A stretch of DNA of 21,564 bases from a virus. Positions 4,945-19,501 of the stretch are shown here, piece by piece. Every line of letters begins with the position of its first letter. The first letter of the stretch is position 1. The notes beneath the pieces were generated by a model. The model ran no database searches, was not told where the DNA came from, and saw only the letters and a list, made by a program, of their open reading frames with translations. Made by a program: the position numbers and the translations under genes. The stretch is taken from IMG/VR virus record IMGVR_UViG_3300033991_000085, positions 1 through 21,564 of that record, one strand, 5' to 3'.

Positions 4945-4983
4945 TTTTATTAATTATTTAGTTGGAGAAGACAAATTAAAATG

Positions 4984-5012
4984 TTGACAGAAAGTAGAGG
5001 GTATGGTAAAAA
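4984..5012 (+). promoter_or_regulatory. Integrase promoter: consensus -35 with TG-extended -10
   Basis: TTGACA (4984-4989) is a perfect -35. After a 17-base spacer comes TAAAAA (5007-5012), preceded by TG at 5004-5005 (extended -10). Transcription should start near 5019-5021, about 20 bases before the integrase ATG. Confidence 0.65.
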
Positions 5013-5038
5013 TCCCCTTATAAAGAAGAAAGGGGATT
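5011..5038 (+). promoter_or_regulatory. Hairpin hiding the integrase ribosome-binding site
   Basis: AATCCCCTT (5011-5019) pairs perfectly with AAGGGGATT (5030-5038), loop 5020-5029. The 3' arm contains the SD (AAAGGGGA, 5029-5036) of the integrase start at 5041. The 5' arm lies at or upstream of the predicted start site of the integrase promoter. Long read-through RNA would therefore fold and hide the SD, while RNA from the proper promoter could not. Anti-read-through hairpins of this kind are known for IS10 and IS50 transposases. Confidence 0.65.
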
Positions 5039-5040
5039 AT

Positions 5041-6114
5041 ATGGGCGGATCGGTGCATTATTCCAAGAGAACGGATAGATGGTATATTTCTGTTTATTGG
5101 GAAGGAAAACAAAACAGAATTTGGAGATTTAATGATGAGCCTTTTTTTGACAAGAAAAGGGCAGTAATGGTTCTTGATCATATAAGGGCCGAGATTACAA
5201 ATGGGGAATTTAACCCTAAATTTTATTTCCCTAATGCTCCACTTTCTGTAGCTGAATATGCTCAATATTGGTTAAGCAAGATTATGGTTGAACCTAGCAC
5301 AATGAGGGATTATCATTCTAGTGTTTATTGCCATATTGTTCCATTCTTTGGTAATAAGAATATAAAAAAACTTAGACATGATGATTTAGCTGATTTTTAT
5401 AAATCGATCAAACGAAGTGAAATCCGACGCTATAATATTATGGCTACTTTGAGAACCATGTTAAGATGGGCATGGAGAAATGAAGATATTCCTAAAGTTC
5501 CCCCTTTTCCTGTTATGACACAAGGGCAGTTCCCTGAGATTAAATATTATACTTTGGATCAGCAGGAAGAAATTCTAAAAAACATTCCTGAATTGGAACG
5601 CTCTCTTTTTGCTTTTGCGATGGAATATGGACTTCGGAATCAGGAAGTAAGAGCACTTCAATGGGATTCTATTTCGGAAAATGAGTTTATAATTAAGAGG
5701 GTTTTGTCTGAGAATAAACTTAGGGAGAGAACCAAGACAAGAACATCAAGAAACTTTGGTCTTACTCCTTATGCAAGAGCTATTTTAAAATCTTTGCCTC
5801 TTACATCTTCAACTTATGTTTTTGTTAATTCAAGAGGATTACCATTTACAAATAGAAACCTGAATCGTATTTGGGATCGGGCGTGTGAGAAAGCAGGGAT
5901 TGAGAAAATAAAACTTTATGCAGCCTTTCGTCATAGTCTTGGTTGCCAGTTGGTGGATGAGGGGGTTGAGTTTGATAAGATTCAATCACTTTTGGGTCAT
6001 ACAAAACCTGACATGACGAAACGATATGCAAAGCGATCTACAGCAAAACTTACAGAGGTTTTAGTAGATCGGAGAGCAAAGATAATTGAAATAAAGAAGG
6101 AAGAAAAGAAGTAG
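5041..6114 (+). CDS. int: Tyrosine recombinase, phage integrase
   Basis: This enzyme integrates and excises phage DNA by recombining attP with a host attB. The protein is 357 residues from the ATG at 5041. The order is an N-terminal arm-binding beta domain ('YSKRTDRWYISVYWEGK'), a SAM-like core-binding domain (about 65-155), then the catalytic domain. Catalytic residues are Arg199 ('GLRNQEVRALQW'), Lys232 ('TKTRTS'), Arg297 and His298 ('AAFRHSLG'), His320 ('LLGHTKPDM') and the nucleophile Tyr329 ('KRYA'). The first His of the usual HxxRH box is Ala294, which I believe occurs in one integrase subgroup. The start at 5041 has an SD, hidden in a hairpin. An in-frame ATG at 4981 would add 20 residues but overlaps the promoter. 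A probable attP lies about 300 bases downstream. Confidence 0.95.
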   Translation: MGGSVHYSKRTDRWYISVYWEGKQNRIWRFNDEPFFDKKRAVMVLDHIRAEITNGEFNPKFYFPNAPLSVAEYAQYWLSKIMVEPSTMRDYHSSVYCHIVPFFGNKNIKKLRHDDLADFYKSIKRSEIRRYNIMATLRTMLRWAWRNEDIPKVPPFPVMTQGQFPEIKYYTLDQQEEILKNIPELERSLFAFAMEYGLRNQEVRALQWDSISENEFIIKRVLSENKLRERTKTRTSRNFGLTPYARAILKSLPLTSSTYVFVNSRGLPFTNRNLNRIWDRACEKAGIEKIKLYAAFRHSLGCQLVDEGVEFDKIQSLLGHTKPDMTKRYAKRSTAKLTEVLVDRRAKIIEIKKEEKK

Positions 6115-6589: not shown

Positions 6590-6664
6590 AGAGGATTCGT
6601 CTAATGGTTAGGATTGGAGACCTTCAATCTCCAGACAGGGGTTCAATTCCCCTATCCTCTACCA
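6590..6664 (+). tRNA. tRNA-Glu (anticodon TTC)
   Basis: The acceptor AGAGGAT pairs with ATCCTCT, the discriminator is A, and CCA is encoded (6662-6664). The D arm is GTCTAATGGTTAGGAT. The anticodon stem GGAGA/TCTCC holds loop CCTTCAA, giving anticodon TTC (6623-6625). The T arm is AGGGG-TTCAATT-CCCCT. Base 33 is C instead of the near-universal T. The gene starts two bases after the last attP-like repeat. It reads GAA codons, abundant in this AT-rich genome. Confidence 0.93.
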
Positions 6665-6685
6665 AAAAGAAAGAAGGAAAGAAGA

Positions 6686-6958
6686 ATGTTATGTAATGCA
6701 ATAAGAAGAATTTGGGTTGAGTATTATGATGAGGATATTCCTGATTATGTTCATGAAGAAATGAAACTTCTTTGTGAAGATGTAGAAAGGCTGGAAGAAC
6801 AAATTAAGAGGTATGAATCACTTATTTTGAATGAAGAAGAAACAGAAGCTTTTCTAAAGAAGATAAAAGATGAGGAAAGTATTCCTATTGGTTTACTTCC
6901 TACACCTAAATTAGAAGAAGTATTAAGAAAATTAAAAGGAGAGTTGACCGAGGGGTAA
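6686..6958 (+). CDS. Small hypothetical coiled-coil protein, overlapping tRNA-Ser
   Basis: This is a 90-residue protein (MLCNAIRRIWVEYYDED...) that is mostly helical and charged. 'MKLLCEDVERLEEQIKRYES' gives heptad-like spacing, then 'LPTPKLEEVLRKLKGELTEG' ends it. No family is recognised. The start at 6686 follows the SD AAGGAAAG. A longer in-frame start at 6614 would begin inside tRNA-Glu and is unlikely. The last seven codons, with the stop, run into the 5' part of tRNA-Ser (6938), so the mRNA end and the tRNA share bases. Confidence 0.7.
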   Translation: MLCNAIRRIWVEYYDEDIPDYVHEEMKLLCEDVERLEEQIKRYESLILNEEETEAFLKKIKDEESIPIGLLPTPKLEEVLRKLKGELTEG

Positions 6959-7024
6959 GGTATCGGATTGCTAATCCGAAGTTAGCTGAAAGCTACATAG
7001 GTTCAAATCCTGTACTCTCCGCCA
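6938..7024 (+). tRNA. tRNA-Ser (anticodon GCT)
   Basis: The acceptor GGAGAGT pairs with ACTCTCC, followed by G and an encoded CCA. The anticodon stem TCGGA/TCCGA holds loop TTGCTAA, anticodon GCT (6970-6972). The long variable arm has stem TAGCT/AGCTA, diagnostic of serine. The T arm is ATAGG-TTCAAAT-CCTGT. It decodes AGC and AGT. Its first 21 bases overlap the end of the upstream coding frame. Confidence 0.96.
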
Positions 7025-7030
7025 AAAAAC

Positions 7031-7106
7031 GCCGGGGTAGTTTAACAGGTAAAATATCTGCTCTGTAAGCAGGGAGATGAGAGTTTGAATCTCTCCCCCG
7101 GCTCCA
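7031..7106 (+). tRNA. tRNA-Thr (anticodon TGT)
   Basis: The acceptor GCCGGGG pairs with CCCCGGC, the discriminator is T, and CCA is encoded (7104-7106). The anticodon stem TCTGC/GCAGG holds loop TCTGTAA with anticodon TGT (7064-7066). The T arm is GAGAG-TTTGAAT-CTCTC. Two positions are odd: base 33 is C rather than T, and base 56 in the T loop is T rather than C. It would read ACA codons, frequent here. The gene lies 6 bases after tRNA-Ser. Confidence 0.9.
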
Positions 7107-10521: not shown

Positions 10522-10674
10522 ATGGCTATACCTGTGTTGCCTATAATGGGATTGGTTGTACTTATTGCTATATTTTGTCAAGCTGCATTTCCTACTGAGG
10601 ATAATAAGTCAATTAAAAAAGAAAAACAAAAAAATGAACATCAAATAGAGAAGGATGGAGAAGAAAGGGAATGA
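10522..10674 (+). CDS. Tiny membrane-anchored protein before the papain-like protease
   Basis: This is a 50-residue frame, MAIPVLPIMGLVVLIAIFCQ..., with one N-terminal hydrophobic span and a highly charged tail (EDNKSIKKEKQKNEHQIEKD). A strong SD AAGGAGATAAGA precedes the ATG. The stop overlaps the next start (ATGA at 10671), so it is coupled to the papain-like protease gene. 'AIFC' is a poor lipobox, so a lipoprotein is possible but unlikely. It might anchor or accompany the protease; this is inference from position only. Confidence 0.65.
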   Translation: MAIPVLPIMGLVVLIAIFCQAAFPTEDNKSIKKEKQKNEHQIEKDGEERE

Positions 10675-11522
10675 GAAAACGAACTGTTTGTAATAAAGGG
10701 ATGGGTTGGATACGAGAATACCCAAGTATAAAGGATTATACGGTTGATTATAAGAAATCTTTTCAGTTAGTTGGTAAAAACAAGGAATCAGACAGAATTG
10801 ATTTACGTCATTATTGTTCTTCTGTAGATCATCAAGATGTAACACAATCATGTACAGCACATGCAGCTTCAGGGTTGATTGAATATTGGCAGAACAAAAA
10901 TAAAAAGAAAAGTATTCATCCTTCAAGACTTTTTATTTATAAAGTATCACGAAGTCTAGCGGGGATTGAAGGTGATAATGGAAGTTATCTTAGATCAACA
11001 GCACAAGCTTTAGTGTTGTTTGGTGCTCCTCCAGAGGAATACTATCCTTTTATTCCAGAAAAAATAGATGATGAGCCTAGTTCTTTTGTTTATGCTCTTG
11101 CTCAGAATTACCAATCAACAGTATATTATAGATTGGATTCTTTATTTGTATCAGGGGAAAATTTGTTAACACAGATTAAGATTCAATTATCAAATGAAGT
11201 TCCATGTATGTTTGGGTTTAGTGTGTATAGCGGAATTGAGTATGTTGGTAGTTCAGGTTTAATCCCTTTTCCAAGAGATACTGAAGCTTTCTGTGGTGGT
11301 CATGCTGTTTTAGCAGTTGGTTATGATAATGAGAAAAATGCAATATTAATTAAAAATTCATGGGGAAGAGATTGGGGATGTGAAGGATATGGTTGGTTGC
11401 CTTATGATTATGTTCTTCATGGTTTGACCGCAGATTGGTGGTGTATTACTAACAATGAATGGGTAGATTTAGATAAGTTCGCTCTTATTAATTTTTCAAA
11501 TAAAGGAGAAGTAATTGTTTAA
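10671..11522 (+). CDS. Papain-family (C1) cysteine protease
   Basis: This is a 283-residue C1 peptidase. The catalytic Cys61 is in 'DVTQSCTAHAAS', with Gln55 in the oxyanion position six residues before it. His211 is in 'CGGHAVLAVGYD', and Asn229 is in 'IKNSWGRDWGCEGYGW', the classic NSWG box. All key residues are present, so it should be active. There is no signal peptide and almost no propeptide (about 40 residues before the catalytic domain), so it is probably made active in the cytoplasm or carried in the virion. It is coupled by ATGA to a tiny membrane protein and lies ahead of exported FN3-like proteins. C1 proteases are uncommon in tailed phages. A role in virion processing, host takeover or lysis cannot be separated. 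Confidence 0.92.
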   Translation: MRKRTVCNKGMGWIREYPSIKDYTVDYKKSFQLVGKNKESDRIDLRHYCSSVDHQDVTQSCTAHAASGLIEYWQNKNKKKSIHPSRLFIYKVSRSLAGIEGDNGSYLRSTAQALVLFGAPPEEYYPFIPEKIDDEPSSFVYALAQNYQSTVYYRLDSLFVSGENLLTQIKIQLSNEVPCMFGFSVYSGIEYVGSSGLIPFPRDTEAFCGGHAVLAVGYDNEKNAILIKNSWGRDWGCEGYGWLPYDYVLHGLTADWWCITNNEWVDLDKFALINFSNKGEVIV

Positions 11523-13189: not shown

Positions 13190-13221
13190 GTGTAGCTTTG
13201 GTTTTAAAGCCAAAGCTACAC
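13190..13221 (+). terminator. Perfect 12-bp hairpin before the portal gene
   Basis: GTGTAGCTTTGG (13190-13201) pairs with CCAAAGCTACAC (13210-13221), loop TTTTAAAG. There is no T tract after it, so intrinsic termination is doubtful. It could be a processing site, a Rho-related structure or a binding site. It is followed directly by a promoter-like element. Confidence 0.5.
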
Positions 13222-18999: not shown

Positions 19000-19014
19000 T
19001 TGAAATAAAACTCT

Positions 19015-19058
19015 GAAGGTGGGGATTTCGGTCTCCACCTTCGATTAAATATTTAATC
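19015..19058 (+). terminator. Hairpin plus palindrome after the capsid gene
   Basis: GAAGGTGGGGA (19015-19025) pairs with TCTCCACCTTC (19032-19042) over 11 bp with one G-T pair. A perfect 16-bp palindrome GATTAAATATTTAATC (19043-19058) follows, just before the SD of the next gene. With no T tract, it is better read as an mRNA-stabilising or attenuating structure that lowers expression after the capsid gene. Confidence 0.5.
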
Positions 19059-19072
19059 GGAGGTAAATTAGT

Positions 19073-19501
19073 ATGTTTAAAATTTCTTATCATTTTAGGG
19101 TTGATAACCTTGTAACTCCACAGGATGTTGCTACTGCTAGTACAGTTAATACAAATACTGGCATGTATCGTTCAATGGCTGAATATGATCTCGGTTGTGT
19201 TGTTATTATTGCTCATTTGACAGATACAAAGACAGCTATTGGTCAGTTGACTTGTTCGTCTGCTCCTGCTGCAACTGGAAAAGCGAATGTTACTGGTTAT
19301 ACGGTTACACTGACAGGAACAACTGCTGCTCCTGAACAGGTGGGTTGTATTGATTTTAAGGCAATTGATCTTTATGAGATTGCTCCTACAAAGTATTATG
19401 TTGGTGTTGATATTACGACAAATCAGAATGGTGATGATGTTGGTGCTGTTTTGATTCGTGGTGGTGCAAGATATTATGAAGGAGCAAATATGGATGTGTA
19501 A
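19073..19501 (+). CDS. Probable capsid decoration or minor head protein
   Basis: This is a 142-residue beta-rich protein, Thr/Ala/Gly-rich, with no charged helices ('YDLGCVVIIAHLTDTKTAIGQLT', 'YYVGVDITTNQNGDDVGAVLIRGGARY'). It lies immediately after the capsid gene, where decoration or stabilising proteins are usual. I infer that role from position and composition only. The SD TCGGAGGT is strong. Confidence 0.65.
   Translation: MFKISYHFRVDNLVTPQDVATASTVNTNTGMYRSMAEYDLGCVVIIAHLTDTKTAIGQLTCSSAPAATGKANVTGYTVTLTGTTAAPEQVGCIDFKAIDLYEIAPTKYYVGVDITTNQNGDDVGAVLIRGGARYYEGANMDV

Follow-up and report, generated by a model that had tools for sequence, protein, structure and literature searches.

Temperate viruses and integrative elements need to restrict integrase production to the times when it is required, even though their genes lie in busy operons. 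The transposases of IS10 and IS50 are reportedly protected against outside promoters, as Davis, Simons and Kleckner are said to have described in 1985 (cited in PMC2965389), and the lambda S holin gene carries a dual-start motif in which an RNA hairpin sets the ratio of two nearby in-frame starts. In IS50, overlapping promoters and two in-frame starts can give rise to long and short forms of the recombinase (Tnp/Inh; PMC4265352). For the int gene of staphylococcal prophages, experiments have placed a sigma-H promoter, with a conserved sequence of 40 bp, in a conserved short leader; a 9-base inverted repeat lies near this leader, and int is transcribed both as a short RNA and by long read-through (PMC2869324). 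The available part of the account of ISPpu9 describes a long, structured tnp 5′-UTR which, together with antisense sRNAs, controls translation (PMC8450116). A search of open-licence papers returned no description of the integrase leader considered here, which is analogous but not related to those of IS10/IS50, the lambda S holin gene and staphylococcal int with its sigma-H promoter.

This leader lies in a 21.6-kb virus record, the whole 21,564-nucleotide stretch of which was analysed and is referred to as the window; it carries terminase, portal, protease and capsid genes together with the gene for a tyrosine integrase (int). The int gene occupies positions 5041..6114 on the plus strand, as do all leader features given below, and encodes a tyrosine recombinase of 357 aa from ATG 5041. 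Its product matches PF00589 (1.2e-22), PF14659 (1e-9) and phrog_1 (5.5e-48), and both the catalytic domain (PF00589) and the SAM-like core-binding domain of a phage tyrosine recombinase are present. Searches of phage and plasmid collections returned no relative of this integrase above 60% identity. Protein alignments with the relatives L087 (53%) and L088 (57%), both on genome contigs, begin at M-G-G-S, which corresponds to the ATG 5041 start.

The preliminary description of this DNA reported a perfect 9-bp hairpin masking the integrase Shine–Dalgarno (SD) sequence, and our analysis confirms it. The 5′ arm AATCCCCTT (5011..5019), which forms an anti-SD, is exactly complementary to the 3′ arm AAGGGGATT (5030..5038) at 9 of 9 pairs across a 10-nt loop (5020..5029), and the SD of ATG 5041, AAGGGG at 5030-5035, is buried in the 3′ arm. 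A shuffled window is expected to hold 0.17 stems that combine ≥9 bp, ≥4 G-C pairs and a loop of 3-12 nt; only two occur in the window, the int hairpin and another at 13190-13221. The computed RNA fold as drawn has an energy of -11.8 kcal/mol, compared with a shuffle mean of -5.8 (z -2.7). For any RNA beginning at or before 5012, the computed probability that the SD is unpaired is 0.02; it is 0.11, 0.39 and 0.62 for RNAs beginning at 5014, 5016 and 5019, respectively. Going by the computed fold alone, the SD would therefore be masked when the RNA has the upstream arm, and the arrangement resembles that of IS10 and IS50 in that a recombinase SD is masked by an RNA hairpin with its 5′ arm upstream, such that the origin of the RNA may decide translation. 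It differs from these elements, which encode a DDE transposase between terminal inverted repeats, in that a viral tyrosine integrase is encoded and the hairpin does not come from terminal inverted repeats.

We compared 29 non-redundant leaders from genomes and viral contigs, this virus's own included. The SD-covering fold was stabler than shuffles of the 5′ region in 28 of them (mean z -2.06, combined z -11.1; mean z -0.5 for a control of 25 other genes of the window), and the signal survived when variation was restricted to synonymous codons (combined z -6.3) or when codon order was shuffled (-8.3), which argues that the hairpin is not a by-product of coding; the leaders share ancestry, however, so these combined values overstate significance and are not strict probabilities. 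The mean probability of an unpaired SD was 0.19 with the 5′ arm and 0.58 if the RNA begins 34 nt after the TTG described below. Because aligning the leaders with MAFFT did not bring the stems into register, base pairs were counted fold by fold. Covariation between the arms, which the preliminary description had proposed to look for in homologues, was found as compensating changes at two SD positions: the pair at +2 is G-C in 15 leaders, A-U in 8 and U-A in 1, and that at +5 is U-A in 10, G-C in 6, U-G in 5, C-G in 4 and A-U in 2. Arm sequence and loop length differ among relatives, with arms of ACCCTCTTT/AAAGGGGGT in L087, GCCTCTT/AAGGAGGC in L114 and CCTCTC/GAGAGG in L137, while pairing is kept, G-U pairs and bulges included. 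Judged from these comparisons, the int hairpin is a real, conserved RNA-level feature with compensatory changes.

The hairpin is entirely contained in a leader that may be coding and that begins at an upstream ATG-TTG (4981-4986) absent from the preliminary description. In the window this leader (4981..5040) has ATG 4981 followed by TTG 4984, spans 19-20 codons, and is open in frame into int; a weak candidate SD, GGAGAA (SD1, 4964..4969), stands 11 nt before ATG 4981. The TTG is part of TTGACA (4984..4989), in which the conserved TTGA may represent an alternative start codon and/or a -35-like element; TTGA, by whose presence the leaders were selected, is found 48-72 nt before the int start in 29 of 29. 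From TTG to the int start the distance is 48, 51, 54, 57, 63 or 72 nt in 28 of 29 leaders, all multiples of three, and in the same number the TTG frame runs open into int, compared with 0 and 7 for the other two phases and with 11.2 ± 2.7 (maximum 18) under base shuffles. By arithmetic from base composition, an in-frame TTGA would fall in that interval by chance in ~6% of sequences. Purine-rich SD-like 4-mers occur at -16..-5 of the TTG in 21 of the 29 leaders, this virus being among the remaining 8, and the main int start codon is ATG in 27 and GTG in 2. Leader amino acids are poorly conserved except those encoded by the SD. In a predicted model of the long Int form, the folded part extends from about residue 21, directly after the Met of ATG 5041, and residues 1-18 have pLDDT <50; with pLDDT values of 30-44, the leader is predicted to be disordered.

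With the frame open in 28 of 29 leaders, RNA arriving from upstream can be translated through the hairpin. Two relatives depart from the pattern: L113 breaks the leader frame, and L107 has lost the TTG leader to an upstream gene that runs into the SD, yet keeps the hairpin. The upstream start is therefore not indispensable, and the hairpin is the most robust part of the arrangement.

This in-frame open leader with its own start is a further difference from IS10 and IS50, and read-through RNA need not be silent here. Two nearby in-frame starts, each with an SD by sequence (SD1 being weak in the window), and an RNA hairpin bring this phage gene closer to lambda S, from which it differs in the gene concerned, in the spacing of the starts (48-72 nt vs two codons) and in that the int hairpin covers the downstream SD. 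As with IS50 Tnp/Inh, the leader could give long and short recombinase forms, although the long form would add only ~20 predicted disordered residues and the hairpin would gate the short form. Compared by description, the staphylococcal sigma-H leader likewise is conserved, short, placed before int and near a 9-base inverted repeat, whereas no in-frame leader is described there, the promoter here is only putative, and the hosts are different. ISPpu9 is similar in that a mobile-element recombinase is regulated at the level of translation through a structured leader; it differs in its long UTR and antisense sRNAs, and the available part of that account does not mention an in-frame upstream start (PMC8450116).

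Our best reading of these observations, which we favor with moderate confidence, is that a hairpin-gated internal start lies inside a dual-start integrase gene. The gene would have two in-frame starts. The upstream one would be ATG/TTG at 4981/4984, for which relatives have TTG, often preceded by an SD; the main one would be ATG 5041. The folds and their conservation suggest that an RNA carrying both arms would hide the SD of this main, internal start and so keep it closed. The main start would then be used only where a ribosome passing through the leader, or reinitiating after the neighbouring gene, melts the hairpin, or on an RNA beginning inside or beyond the 5′ arm, in which it would be open from the outset. 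The upstream start would yield an N-extended integrase with ~20 extra disordered residues, and the internal start the standard form. Integrase output probably depends on both the RNA species made and the arrival of ribosomes from upstream. The hairpin with its compensating changes, the open in-frame leader and the conserved positions of the two starts come from sequence and comparison; we infer that ribosomes initiate at the two starts, that in cells the hairpin acts as a repressor, and that the two isoforms or RNA classes are important for integration. If true, this would be a compact, portable tie of integrase output to RNA origin or upstream translation, and the integrase starts annotated in this group may be wrong, or one of two. 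It is more doubtful that, as a widespread control module of Syntrophaceae-like bacteria, found in their prophages and viruses, upstream RNA would give only the long, TTG-started Int and RNA from a built-in promoter only the short one, with the hairpin separating the forms and the isoform reporting which RNA was made and perhaps setting the direction of recombination.

One may postulate an alternative scenario, close to the preliminary description, in which a promoter inside the leader gives rise to a short, translated int RNA without the 5′ arm, whereas read-through RNA folds and is silent, as in IS10/IS50; we regard this as possible but tentative. Read-through RNA is a real issue, since int closely follows a co-directional gene in most relatives; the upstream gene differs among them but is mostly co-directional and ends ≤50 nt from the TTG. 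Of the int promoter that was proposed, the -35 TTGACA at 4984-4989 is exact, whereas the -10 at 5007-5012 is TAAAAA, matching at 4 of 6 positions and lacking the final T; a simple promoter scan picks out AAAAAT (5008-5013), spaced by 18 nt from the -35 (10/12), and promoter-like sites in the region are fewer than in shuffles (7 vs 9.7 ± 3.3). The weak -10 is contained in TATGGTAAAAAT (5002..5013), which comparison identifies as this virus's version of a YATRATA motif. Across the leaders, where TTGA is fixed, the motif TTGA-N13-AYATRATA is enriched: AYATRATA is found at +17 in 12 of 29 (0.016 expected) and TA at +23/24, a 17-nt spacing, in 19 of 29 (2.6 expected). This is far beyond chance and third codon positions in the motif are largely fixed, so the motif appears to be constrained as DNA or RNA. 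It is AT-rich and lies just ahead of the arm, such that an RNA begun there would lose most of the arm, and L113, despite its lost frame, retains TTGACA-18-TAATAT ahead of the hairpin arm. Set against this, a full -10 hexamer 16-18 nt from TTGA is not enriched in the 29 leaders over codon-shuffled sequences (2.79 vs 2.63 ± 0.18), leaving a conserved motif just before the arm but no canonical -10 enrichment; the strongly conserved -10-like YATRAT sits at a non-canonical spacing, 12 nt from TTGA, which is too close for sigma-70; and individual folds of some leaders have YAT paired to the start codon instead. An internal promoter may exist; in the window it would be effective, with a free SD, only if the RNA started after ~5016. 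A different sigma factor is conceivable for this leader by analogy with staphylococcal int (PMC2869324). That the leader frame is open in 28 of 29 cases speaks against read-through RNA being wholly silent, as ribosomes initiating upstream would unfold the hairpin and might produce N-extended integrase. The earlier statement that only RNA from upstream is silenced is contradicted in part: the SD is predicted to be masked when both arms are present, but the statement ignored the conserved in-frame start. Its extension, that integration is kept off while the terminase region is transcribed, concerns this virus alone, as the relatives have other genes upstream. The anti-read-through idea is partly supported and is kept as a competing explanation, made less likely by the in-frame leader.

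The remaining alternatives question the internal start or the role of the hairpin. Were Int to start only upstream (TTG/ATG), with ATG 5041 and its SD being mere codons (KGGDYM) and the hairpin without a role, the strict conservation of the frame in 28 of 29 leaders would be readily understood; yet the leader residues are poorly conserved and predicted to be disordered, in two relatives the internal ATG is replaced by GTG, a change expected of a start codon, and the hairpin is constrained beyond coding, all of which makes this scenario improbable. The hairpin-gated internal start has also to be weighed against a responsive RNA switch, a thermometer or an element bound by sRNA or protein, whose state is not read out through translation or the point where the transcript begins. 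Thermometers and sRNA targets commonly mask an SD with a single hairpin, and the stem in the window is only 9 bp. The leaders, on the other hand, share no conserved loop sequence or ligand-like core, an Rfam search returned only tRNAs and no match at the hairpin site, and conserved coupling to an in-frame leader would be unnecessary for such a switch, to which we likewise give little credence. The inverted repeat could finally be a DNA element, either an operator or an attachment-site core recombined by Int, as it lies just before int, overlaps the promoter-like motif, and with its 9-bp arms and 10-bp spacer resembles a core site. We consider this very improbable and reject both the operator and the attachment-site readings as main explanations: pairing is kept, G-U pairs and bulges included, while arm sequence and loop length vary, and in several relatives tmRNA or tRNA genes across int place the attachment site there, so that the hairpin is not the attachment core in those relatives.

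The leader was also searched for by pattern. Among 155 genomes of one class, the leader pattern gave 8 matches, compared with 0 in a reversed control, and all 8 precede integrases, including zinc-finger-type integrases ~22% identical to that of this virus. A looser pattern gave 3 matches among 395 genomes across the phylum, only the already known one of which precedes an integrase, and a short-motif scan of viral contigs gave at least 120 matches, of which none among the matches listed passed the filter for an in-frame start and SD. Overall, the putative lock is kept across integrases ~22-78% identical and with apparently different RNA-gene targets. L099, L127, L129 and L131 share the leader and have integrases with a zinc-finger-like N-terminus, the L099 integrase being ~22% identical to that of L088. 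On the far side of int, several relatives are adjoined by the 3′ ends of tmRNA, tRNA-Sec, tRNA-Arg or tRNA-Val genes (L088 4602-4956, L100 2601-2952, L106 2631-2728, L103 2621-2892 and L129 2739-2813), which suggests that RNA-gene targets differ within one integrase family. The gene upstream of int in L087 (1734-2903) and L088 (1926-2948) is, by eye, replication-protein-like with an HFH motif; going by upstream genes judged in this way, the int leader module looks to be common to a tailed-virus setting and elements of another kind.

Several other features of the window were observed. tRNA genes for Glu, Ser and Thr lie a little downstream of int at 6590-7106, and a papain-like cysteine protease gene (PF00112) is found at 10671-11522 amid small genes without known function. 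The second strong stem, at 13190-13221, pairs perfectly over 12 bp around an 8-nt loop; it lies upstream of the portal gene and may be a terminator or a site of processing. Next to the capsid gene, a gene for 142 aa that starts at 19073 also has its SD inside a strong hairpin (19000-19075; z -4.1, probability of an unpaired SD 0.00).
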